A stretch of DNA of 64,000 nucleotides from NCBI RefSeq assembly GCF_024228315.1, contig NZ_CP100454.1:1984001-2048000 (forward strand), written 5' to 3'. The position numbers and the translations under genes were made by a program. The notes beneath the pieces are model-generated. The model did no database searches, had not been told where the DNA came from, and saw only the letters and a list, made by a program, of their open reading frames with translations. Source of the DNA: Halomarina pelagica. GTDB taxonomy: Archaea > Halobacteriota > Halobacteria > Halobacteriales > Haloarculaceae. Every line of letters begins with the position of its first letter. Position 1 is the stretch's first letter. Shown here piece by piece: positions 44,718-47,450 of this stretch.

Positions 44718-44859
44718 GGCAGTGTCGAGAGGGAACTCGGCAGGCGTCGTAGAGAACGCCCTCGAAAGCCCCCGCGTTCTCGATCCCTCTCAGTCCCTCC
44801 CGGCGGTTCGATGGCCCACCGTCATCCGCCTCGACCCCTCGACGGCGCGGTCGCAACCG

Positions 44860-44865
44860 TTTTTT
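44860..44865 (+). promoter_or_regulatory. TATA-like element of the trpS leader transcript
   Basis: CCGTTTTTTCG contains the six-T element. It lies 24-29 nt before the ATG at 44889, the normal spacing for a leaderless haloarchaeal transcript that starts at the leader-peptide ATG. Confidence 0.5.
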
Positions 44866-44888
44866 CGCTCGGGCGACTCGCTTCGAGC

Positions 44889-44966
44889 ATGACCGGACTG
44901 CGCCGCTGGCGCTGGCGCGCCCCCTCGCCAGCGGACAGTCCCGATCCGGTCGCCGGCGCGGCGTAA
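44889..44966 (+). CDS. Putative Trp-codon leader peptide of trpS
   Basis: A 25-codon frame plus TAA, reading MTGLRRWRWRAPSPADSPDP and then VAGAA. Two Trp codons (TGG at 44907-44909 and 44913-44915) are separated by one Arg codon. It sits between a promoter-like element and the tryptophan--tRNA ligase gene. It is too short to be a stable enzyme; tandem rare Trp codons ahead of trpS are the signature of an attenuator peptide. It could also be a chance frame in G+C-rich DNA, since only context supports it. Confidence 0.55.
   Translation: MTGLRRWRWRAPSPADSPDPVAGAA
44904..44933 (+). promoter_or_regulatory. Alternative hairpin around the Trp codons
   Basis: The octamer CGCTGGCG occurs twice (44904-44911 and 44910-44917), each copy holding one Trp codon. 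One downstream arm CGCCAGCG (44926-44933) is perfectly complementary to either. A ribosome stalled on a Trp codon would mask the 5' arms and prevent this pairing. Confidence 0.5.
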
Positions 44967-45007
44967 CCGCGCCGACGGCCGGTCGGCGCTCCCTTCGCTC
45001 CCGTTTT
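44954..45007 (+). terminator. Mutually exclusive hairpins before trpS (candidate antiterminator/terminator)
   Basis: Hairpin one pairs CGGCGCGG (44954-44961) with CCGCGCCG (44967-44974), with the leader TAA in the 5-nt loop. Hairpin two pairs GCGCCGAC (44969-44976) with GTCGGCGC (44982-44989). The two share bases 44969-44974, so only one can form. Hairpin two is followed by a C/T-rich tract with TTTT at 45004-45007. The archaeal mechanism is unknown; the structure is seen, the role inferred. Confidence 0.5.
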
Positions 45008-45075
45008 CCCTCCCGAACCGTCACCGACCGCGACGCCGTCCGTCGCTCACGGACACAGACATAGACCAGACACAG

Positions 45076-46326
45076 ATGCCCACCGATCACGATCCGACCG
45101 ACTCGTCCGACTCGTCCGATTCGGCCGACGCCGTCGAACCGGACGACTTCGACGTCACTCCCTACGCCGTTTCGGGCGAGGTGGACTACGAGAGACTGCT
45201 CGCACGCTTCGGCGCGGACGCGCTAACCGACGACCAGATCGATCGCTTCCCCCGGCCGCCCCACCCGCTCCTCCACCGGGGCGTATTCTACGCCGGCCGC
45301 GACGTGGACCGCCTGCTCGACGCGATCGAGGCCGACGAGCCGATCTCGATCGTCACCGGGATCGGCCCCTCCGGGCCGATGCACCTCGGACACGTCCTGC
45401 CGTTCTACTTCGCGAAGTGGCTCCAGGCGGAGACCGGCGCGCACGTCTACGTCCCGCTCTCCGACGACGAGAAGTACCTCTCGAAGGACCTCTCGCTCGC
45501 CGCCGTGCGGGCGTACGCGCGCGAGAACCTCAGAGACCTCCTCGCGGTCGGGTTCGACCCCGATCGGACCCGGATCGTCGTGGACACCGCGGACGCGGAC
45601 GTGATCTACCCGCTGGCGACGGCGCTCGCGAAGCGCGTCACGCCCGCGACCGTGGAGGCGGTCTACGGCGAACCGGAGAACGTCGGGATGGGGTTCTACC
45701 CGGCGGTGCAGGCGACGCACCTGTTGCTCCCGCAGTTCGTCCGCGGCCCGCACGCGACGACCGTCCCCATCGCCGTCGACCAGGACCCGCACGTGCGCCT
45801 CTGTCGCGACGTCGCCGCGAAGGAGGTCCTCGACGCGGAGAAGCCGGGGGCGCTCCTCTCGCGCTTCCTCCCGAGCCTCGGCGGGCCGGGCAAGATGAGC
45901 GCGTCCGACGAGGCCCTGAGCATCGACCTGACCGACGACCGCGAGACGGTCCGCGAGAAGGTAATGCAGTACGCCTACTCCGGCGGGCAGTCGAGCGTCG
46001 AGGCCCACCGCGAACTCGGCGGCGACCCGGAGGTGGACGTCGCCTACCGCTACCTCCACGCGTTCTTCGAACCTGACGACGCAGAAGTCGAGCGGCTGGC
46101 CCGCGAGTACCGCGCCGGCGACCTCCTGACGGGCGACCTCAAGGCCCGCGCCGCCGAGCGCATCGCGGACTTCCTCGACGCCCACCAGTCGCGCCGGCCG
46201 AGCGACGCGGAACTGGACGGGGCGCTCGAACCGTACCGCCTCACCGCCGAGGAGCGCGAGCGGGCGCTCGCGGCGGTCGGGCTCGGTCCCGGCGTGCGGA
46301 CGCTCGACGTGGAAGAGGACGAGTGA
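45076..46326 (+). CDS. trpS: Tryptophan--tRNA ligase
   Basis: A 416-residue class I aminoacyl-tRNA synthetase charging tRNA-Trp. The HIGH-type motif is in GPSGPMHLGHVLPF and the KMSKS motif appears as KMSAS in GPGKMSASDEAL. FDVTPYAVSGEVDYERLL near the N-terminus is typical of archaeal TrpRS. The last 30 residues (YRLTAEERERALAAVGLG then PGVRTLDVEEDE) are duplicated at nucleotide level 1.13 kb downstream. A leader peptide with two Trp codons and hairpins precedes the gene. Confidence 0.95.
   Translation: MPTDHDPTDSSDSSDSADAVEPDDFDVTPYAVSGEVDYERLLARFGADALTDDQIDRFPRPPHPLLHRGVFYAGRDVDRLLDAIEADEPISIVTGIGPSGPMHLGHVLPFYFAKWLQAETGAHVYVPLSDDEKYLSKDLSLAAVRAYARENLRDLLAVGFDPDRTRIVVDTADADVIYPLATALAKRVTPATVEAVYGEPENVGMGFYPAVQATHLLLPQFVRGPHATTVPIAVDQDPHVRLCRDVAAKEVLDAEKPGALLSRFLPSLGGPGKMSASDEALSIDLTDDRETVREKVMQYAYSGGQSSVEAHRELGGDPEVDVAYRYLHAFFEPDDAEVERLAREYRAGDLLTGDLKARAAERIADFLDAHQSRRPSDAELDGALEPYRLTAEERERALAAVGLGPGVRTLDVEEDE
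46233..46281 (+). repeat. 49-bp direct repeat, left copy (within trpS 3' end)
   Basis: The sequence from GTACCGCCTCACCGCC to GGCGGTCGGG is identical to 47363-47411, spaced 1,130 bp apart in direct orientation. This copy encodes the YRLTAEERERALAAVG segment of TrpS. Confidence 0.9.
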
Positions 46327-46379: not shown

Positions 46380-47075
46380 ATGGTCGACGAGGACGTCTCC
46401 GCCGACGAAACAGGGCACGAGGACCCCGCCGTCCCGGAGGCCGAGAGAGCCGACGCTTCGACGAGCGACGCCGGCACCGTTGGTGCTGACGACGCCGACG
46501 GCGCGACGGGCGACCGCTCGTGGAGTCGCGTCACGCCATCCCCCGACGTTCACGAGCAGTCTCTCGACGAGGCGCTCGCCGAATCGCACCTCGTCATGGA
46601 GCGACAGTTGGAGCAATCCTACGACCTCGCGACGACGGCCGGCTCCCTCGCGAAGCTCACTGGAGTCCTGTTCGGTGCGGTCGTGGCGCTCGGTCGTCTC
46701 CGCGGGCTCGGCATCTTCGATCCGTGGCTCGGGGTACCCGGGGTCGTTCTCTTGCTGGCTGCGTTTGCACTGTTCGTGATCTCGAGTAGCGGCGAACAGC
46801 CGCGCATCGGCGCGAGCGCCCACCACCTGGCAGAGACGCCGGGGATGGACCCGATAGAGGCCAAACGCGAACTCCTCGAGGTGTACGTCGGCTCGCAGCT
46901 CGTCAACGAGGAGAACATCGCCGGGTTGCGAACGGGGGTCTTCTACGGCCAACTCCTCCTCATCGGCGGGCTGGCGCTCTTGCTCGCGAGTCTCGCCGTC
47001 GATCCCATCGTATCGCTCGTTGGTGGTATCGCGACCGTCGTCGGGGACGTACTCGTCGCCGTCGTCACGGTGTGA
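46380..47075 (+). CDS. Putative multi-TM membrane protein within the duplicated-end segment
   Basis: A 231-residue protein of unknown family. The first 75 residues are acidic and disordered. A TM pair follows (about 100-116 and 119-138), then a soluble helical segment with GEQPRIGASAHHLAETPGMD and KRELLEVYVGSQLVNEENIA. A second TM pair fills about 185-229 to the C-terminus. The 2TM-helical-2TM plan is reminiscent of SLATT-like or other small membrane effectors, but I see no diagnostic motif. It lies entirely between the two 49-bp repeats. Confidence 0.7.
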   Translation: MVDEDVSADETGHEDPAVPEAERADASTSDAGTVGADDADGATGDRSWSRVTPSPDVHEQSLDEALAESHLVMERQLEQSYDLATTAGSLAKLTGVLFGAVVALGRLRGLGIFDPWLGVPGVVLLLAAFALFVISSSGEQPRIGASAHHLAETPGMDPIEAKRELLEVYVGSQLVNEENIAGLRTGVFYGQLLLIGGLALLLASLAVDPIVSLVGGIATVVGDVLVAVVTV

Positions 47076-47362: not shown

Positions 47363-47450
47363 GTACCGCCTCACCGCCGAGGAGCGCGAGCGGGCGCTCG
47401 CGGCGGTCGGGATCGCCCCCGTCGTGCGAGAAATTGACACTGTCTGGTAA
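47363..47450 (+). pseudogene. Duplicated trpS 3'-end fragment
   Basis: Positions 47363-47411 repeat trpS 46233-46281 exactly; similarity decays after that. In the trpS frame it reads YRLTAEERERALAAVGIA then PVVREIDTVW and stops at 47450. It is a detached, alternative C-terminus for TrpS with no start of its own. It may be the original gene end displaced by an insertion, or a copy made during insertion. Confidence 0.75.

Follow-up and report, generated by a model that had tools for sequence, protein, structure and literature searches.

A candidate tryptophan leader-peptide attenuator upstream of an accessory tryptophanyl-tRNA synthetase gene in haloarchaea

The window, a stretch of 64,000 nucleotides from the genome of Halomarina pelagica, carries the trpS gene for an accessory tryptophanyl-tRNA synthetase (TrpRS) and, upstream of it, a short leader ORF, a set of RNA stems and a C/T-rich tract (Table 1). 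The trpS product passed the curated TrpRS model NF008927 with 537.6 bits against a cut-off of 478, scored 218 against TIGR00233 (cut-off 176.75) and matched PF00579. The nearest named relative is Halomarina halobia, with 93% identity. Besides this trpS, two further TrpRS genes are present in the same genome, a second accessory paralogue that is 65% identical (G000:C1:329206) and a long main TrpRS that is 34% identical to the trpS product (G000:C1:1856918); the long main TrpRS is nearly universal in the family. The original prediction had read this region as a tryptophan-responsive leader-peptide attenuator, and the elements that it described were all found in place, including the six-T element TTTTTT, the 25-codon frame with TGG CGC TGG, the ATG of trpS, the C/T-rich tract with TTTT after the second of two hairpins, and the pairing of both Trp codon octamers with one arm, since CGCCAGCG at 44926-44933 is complementary to CGCTGGCG. 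The 186-nt leader folded with a z of -2.46.

Table 1. Features of the trpS leader region, in positions of the window.
Feature	Position	Strand	Remarks
Promoter: BRE-like AA (44855-44856) and T6 at the TATA position (44860-44865)	44853..44865	+	T6 at -29 to -24 from the leader start
Leader ORF, 25 codons, MTGLRRWRWRAPSPADSPDPVAGAA	44889..44966	+	ATG at 44889, stop TAA at 44964-44966
P1 5' arm, CCGCTGGCG	44903..44911	+	first Trp codon lies within it in this lineage
Putative regulatory codons TGG CGC TGG (Trp-Arg-Trp)	44907..44915	+	W-x-W kept among orthologues
P1 3' arm, CGCCAGCGG	44926..44934	+	also the 5' partner of P4; covariation
P2 5' arm, AGTCCCGA	44937..44944	+	consensus AGTATCGC
P3 hairpin (hairpin A), CGGCGCGG-cgtaa-CCGCGCCG	44954..44974	+	leader stop TAA in loop
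Hairpin B, GCGCCGAC-GGCCG-GTCGGCGC	44969..44989	+	lineage-specific, outside the conserved element
P2 3' arm, TCGGCGCT	44983..44990	+	consensus CGGTGCT
C/T-rich tract, CCTTCGCTCCCGTTTTC	44992..45008	+	P4 3' partner and candidate termination tract; T-enriched family positions
trpS, accessory tryptophanyl-tRNA synthetase, 416 aa	45076..46326	+	ATG at 45076; NCBIfam and Pfam matches

When 80 named haloarchaeal loci were compared, 79 had enough upstream DNA for counting W-x-W frames, that is, frames upstream of trpS that begin with ATG or GTG, are 12-35 codons long and contain two Trp codons separated by one codon. Such a frame was present in the same upstream place in 73 of the 79 orthologues, and in the controls it was found in 1/79 on the antisense strand, in 0/76 and 0/76 further upstream, in 0/79 and 0/79 inside trpS, and in 9 of 1580 shuffles. 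With a looser definition, a short upstream frame with at least two close Trp codons, the count was 74 of 80 loci. Among the exceptions, L058 is cut off and L100 has no element. The middle residue varied (WRW 83, WQW 9, WHW 5, WPW 1 and WCW 1), and in most species the P1 loop holds the Trp codons, whereas in Halomarina they overlap the P1 arm. What is kept is the Trp codons and not one fixed RNA motif. In the 89 distinct elements that were parsed, one Trp codon was present in 5 leaders, two in 62, three in 20 and four in 2, and every element had at least one in-frame Trp codon in the P1 hairpin. What is expected of an attenuator at the level of the leader, a short ORF with tandem codons for the amino acid that is sensed, was thus found (73/79 and 89/89). 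In L051, L064, L065 and L079, which are also exceptions and belong to second or plasmid-borne accessory TrpRS copies, the whole element is kept with a single Trp codon, and this may give a different sensitivity.

The stems P1, P2 and P3 were obtained from a 46-sequence alignment, and P1 was located by anchored parsing because RNAalifold on the first MAFFT alignment missed it, the P1 5' arm being misaligned in Halomarina. The 89 elements were parsed with GCTC as the anchor, and GCTC is invariant in all of them, where it was itself the anchor. In the family consensus P1, around the Trp codons, is of the GTCCGCTCCC / GGGAGCGGAC type, P2 reads AGTATCGC / GCGGTGCT and P3 reads GGGCYTMACCC. The spacing is rigid, and almost every element has 49-52 nt between the P1 3' arm and GCTC. 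P1 was present in the 89 elements with a mean z of -4.78. For the three stems together, 88.5% of the cells were paired, double-sided changes were found at 16 of 26 pairs, and the covariation score was 0.294 compared to 0.157 when shuffled (0/500) and 0.05-0.10 when slid. P1 and P2 covary strongly and P3, the weakest stem with 71.7% of its cells paired, covaries less completely. Because shuffles ignore relatedness, the minimum number of changes between Watson-Crick classes was also counted on a TrpRS tree of 43 proteins and, summed over the pairs, it was at least 13 for P1, 21 for P2, 11 for P3 and 7 for P4, a further stem that is described below. The alignment of haloarchaeal upstream regions, which the original prediction had proposed as its own check, therefore came out in its favor, in the W-x-W frames as well as in the double-sided changes and the covariation score.

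When the 89 elements were aligned on the leader start codon (ATG in 76 and GTG in 13), the AT content was 70-84% at -36 to -34 (BRE), up to 89% at -30 to -25 (TATA) and 81% at -11, and when the same 89 elements were aligned on the trpS start codon none of these promoter peaks was seen. The six-T element, which had been noted as promoter-like, is at the TATA position of this profile. Because the promoter elements are in register with the leader start and not with trpS, the leader is probably the first cistron, leaderless and translated without a 5' UTR. In the leader region no sigma-70 site was found, and the sole terminator-like match of a terminator scan was at 44847-44860, where the T6 element is, ahead of the leader; what was found is not a leader of the bacterial sigma-70/intrinsic-terminator type. 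The leader stop codon is at discrete places relative to P1, and in 53 of the 89 elements it is in the P3 loop. Among the 36 elements where the stop is elsewhere, just 3 have TAA in this loop and most have TCA, and the scarcity of TAA there suggests that the leader stop codon is under selection.

The switch had been placed by the original prediction in the pair of hairpins A and B. Both hairpins are present and share 44969-44974, and A is conserved as P3 but B is not; as a conserved alternative hairpin B was rejected because its mean z was -0.30 over the 89 elements, though it was -3.39 at the locus itself. The A/B pair is thus not the conserved one, and the conserved exclusive pair is instead P1 and P4, with P2 and P3 between them. 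P4 pairs the P1 3' arm with the C/T-rich tract, at this locus AGCGGA (44930-44935) with TTCGCT (44994-44999) and elsewhere, for example, GAGAGCG with CGTTCTC, GGGAGTG with CACTTTC, and GGGAAGTG with CGCTTTTT, and because the P1 3' arm is common to both, P1 and P4 are mutually exclusive. The 8-nt arm-tract energies, relative to shuffled tracts, had a mean z of -1.14 with 60% below -1, compared to +0.14 and +0.18 with about 10% below -1 in the neighbouring regions that served as controls. The P4 duplex energies with the element's own partner versus that of other species gave no excess over the control region, and so the case for P4 comes from the shuffles, the register and a few compensated pairs. 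At +10 to +15 after GCTC the tract has T at 37-79% per position (58-79% at +10, +11, +12 and +14) and A at 0%, and further downstream T is at about 10-15%. For the G-rich arm C would be the better partner, and the enrichment of T therefore suggests that T in the tract has a second role, such as termination.

The states of the ribosome were modelled, not measured, by masking the covered RNA in folding. The free RNA had P1 at 0.74 and P4 at 0.22, with a ribosome stalled at the Trp codons P1 was at 0.00-0.01 and P4 at 0.93-0.96, and with a ribosome at the stop codon P1, P2 and P4 were at 0.61, 0.24 and 0.12, respectively. In this computation, therefore, the position of the ribosome chooses between exclusive structures. 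When the tract was shuffled the P4 index of the stalled state dropped from 0.93 to 0.52, which is to say that composition alone, a purine arm and a pyrimidine tract, partly favors P4. The last Trp codon starts 13 nt (median) ahead of the P1 3' arm and the first one 19 nt ahead of it. At these distances, and with the known size of the ribosome footprint, a ribosome stalled at Trp would cover the P1 5' arm while the 3' arm stays accessible. In some species, L018 among them, P2 together with P4 wins at equilibrium even without a stalled ribosome, and so the switch would have to depend on the order of folding. A third stem between the P2 3' arm or tract and the downstream GAGTGA/GTATCG segment, as in a classic 3:4 hairpin, was rejected as a general feature (mean z +0.41 over 72) and is visible in a few Halovenus and Haloferax leaders.

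In the covariance model search, 174 of the 391 class-level genomes had the element, many of the haloarchaea searched being without a detectable element; the model was built from part of the element sequences, so that the scores of those sequences are not independent, and the pattern, tree and promoter tests are separate from it. With a strict DNA pattern, 82 matches were obtained in 292 genomes and none with the pattern reversed, and most of these were at the TrpRS places of the covariance search. The covariance matches that were fetched precede the accessory TrpRS or, in some genomes without an accessory copy, the main TrpRS (for example G001, G003, G020, G021, G023 and G037). The leaders of the main TrpRS are also Trp-coded, for example MVSTSTDRWRWRWQAPEVDSLAAATRRA, with just one Trp at L169 and L171. 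A search outside the class, over a phylum sample of 295 genomes, gave a single weak match (G612, E 6e-4), which was judged to be due to chance. No Rfam family reached the gathering threshold in the window or in five relatives, the element being without an Rfam entry, and an ARAGORN scan gave nothing relevant. Two further copies were observed. The second accessory TrpRS of the same genome (L031, G000:C1:327706-331857) has a separate leader that has diverged, MPAPAILLYTLPAPHDTDYRRWRWPALWK, together with a GGTGAGCCTCACC motif, and the covariance model gave no match there; at L147 (G298:C6) an intact leader element precedes a truncated accessory TrpRS fragment, a decaying copy.

The element is likely to be an attenuator that acts in cis through the ribosome and by which charged tRNA-Trp is sensed and TrpRS controlled, probably via transcription termination. 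The conserved W-x-W frame, the covarying stems and the promoter on the leader start all support the attenuator reading of the original prediction. From the position of the promoter, transcription would start at or next to the leader start codon, and the Trp-rich leader would be translated first, without a 5' UTR. When Trp-tRNA is ample, the ribosome would pass the Trp codons and reach the stop in or near P3, upon which P1 would re-form behind it, P2 would be covered and the C/T-rich tract would be free, so that the transcript would end there. When Trp-tRNA is scarce, the ribosome would stall on the Trp codons and prevent the P1 5' arm from pairing, the P1 3' arm, thus released, would form P4 with the tract beside P2 and P3, and with the tract hidden in P4 RNA polymerase would read into trpS. 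The candidate output signal, the T-enriched tract after P2, is like the T-stretch sites of haloarchaea but is short and mixed, and it is weaker than the T5C terminator tested in Haloferax. In Haloferax volcanii a T-stretch (T5C) gave 95% termination in vivo and hairpins were found upstream of 503 termination sites (PMC7237163), which makes termination at the tract plausible. Transcription-translation coupling has been reported in archaea (PMC7858274).

The main rival to termination is an output at the level of trpS translation, or of mRNA stability, with the same sensing by Trp codons, in which the trpS start region would be folded against the leader or tract when there is no stall and freed by stalling. 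The pairing of the trpS start region with the leader and tract does fall from 0.31 to 0.14 on stalling, but values of 0.22 and 0.13 are obtained even when the downstream sequence is shuffled, none of the conserved stems extends to the trpS start, as the rejected third stem indicates, the trpS start codon is about 59 nt from the conserved GCTC, and such a model does not need the T enrichment of the tract. We therefore regard a translational output as unlikely. Autoregulation, in which TrpRS would bind the leader as a mimic of tRNA-Trp and the short frame would be incidental, fits the fact that the regulated gene is TrpRS itself, as well as the small conserved loop of P3 (CYTMA) and the conserved sequence of P2. 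It is nevertheless very improbable, because the Trp codons are kept while their middle codon and position relative to P1 vary, because the promoter and the stop codon fit a translated frame, and because the element is found before TrpRS genes of two distantly related types (about 30-34% identity) and, in rare cases, before unrelated genes. Least probable of all is that the frame encodes a small functional Trp/Arg-rich protein without any attenuation. The conserved start and the conserved-looking tail (ADS) would speak for it, but the similarity of the peptides is explained by the RNA itself, ADS being encoded by the P1 3' arm and P2, and the tail differs when the frame ends early. The stems also covary, and the element goes together with TrpRS genes.

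In bacteria, regulation through a ribosome that stalls on a leader peptide is textbook knowledge. In the trp, his and pheST attenuators of Escherichia coli, of the Yanofsky type, the leader has codons for the amino acid that is sensed and the position of the ribosome selects between exclusive stems. A termination attenuator at trpS would share this logic of leader codons and exclusive stems and would differ in having P1 against P4 with a constant P2 and P3 between them, a candidate C/T-rich stop signal and archaeal machinery. Vecchione and Sello reportedly described in 2010 a ribosome-mediated attenuator of the auxiliary, antibiotic-resistant TrpRS of Streptomyces. For trpS2 of Streptomyces avermitilis a ribosome-mediated attenuator has been predicted (PMC1262725). 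Like the haloarchaeal element, the actinobacterial trpS attenuators combine a leader peptide rich in Trp with alternative RNA structures, ahead of a TrpRS gene that in both cases can be an auxiliary one, but the haloarchaeal element has an archaeal promoter, a probably leaderless leader and a stop that is often in a hairpin loop, and is without the classic bacterial terminator of a GC hairpin and a U-run. The firmicute T-box riboswitch also controls aminoacyl-tRNA synthetase genes by tRNA charging, whereas the haloarchaeal leader is coding, has no sign of direct tRNA binding and gave no T-box covariance match. In archaea, TrpY is a DNA-binding regulator that is linked to aromatic amino acids. 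TK0271 of Thermococcus kodakarensis is a DNA-binding regulator of aromatic amino acid genes (PMC6737238). Archaeal control is linked to aromatic amino acids in these cases too, but these are proteins acting on promoters and the haloarchaeal element is an RNA leader. In the open-licence literature, an incomplete set, no example of archaeal leader-peptide attenuation was found. On the best reading, the element does in Archaea what the attenuators of aminoacyl-tRNA synthetase genes do in bacteria, but it has an archaeal promoter, a leaderless leader and another layout of the stems. If this is true, RNA structure and the position of the ribosome can decide whether archaeal RNA polymerase terminates at T-rich tracts, and attenuation can work on leaderless mRNAs. 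The element occurs in many haloarchaeal genera, species of Haloferax and Halobacterium among them, so the question is directly testable in genetically tractable organisms.

The P1-P2-P3-tract arrangement was also observed before genes other than TrpRS. In one Halobacteriaceae genus it precedes a GNAT (Acetyltransf_3) gene (L153/L219 in G293 and L155/L220 in G124), with leaders that have no Trp codons (MSAPNASAGRSRERTVRSAA; MSALSTFAVTSRERTVRSAA), and in one Halosimplex-like genus it precedes an MsbA/SmdA-type ABC exporter (L156/L229 in G032 and L230 in G068), with a leader, MSATGLGPVLWHGSTVADSALA, that has one Trp codon, is common to both genomes and has compensated P1 pairs. By eye, no such element was seen at more distant homologues of the GNAT and ABC genes. 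This suggests that the architecture can be reused with other sensing frames. It is conceivable, and we offer it tentatively, that the Trp leader belongs, as one branch, to a general class of archaeal leaderless leader-peptide attenuators with an exchangeable sensing frame, in which Trp codons would serve TrpRS and other frames would serve GNAT (two Halobacteriaceae genomes) or the MsbA-type ABC transporter (two genomes of the G032 genus), perhaps by inhibitor-induced stalling.

Downstream, the end of trpS is repeated directly about 1.1 kb away (46233-46298 and 47363-47428, 66 bp, 94% identity). The repeats bracket an ORF with a hydrophobic C-terminal half (46380-47075), for which there was no Pfam or NCBIfam match, and one small ORF. 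This looks like an insertion with a duplicated gene end or the remnant of a duplication. In Halomarina halobia and Halomarina rubra, trpS is followed by a short spacer and then by a GNAT-like start.
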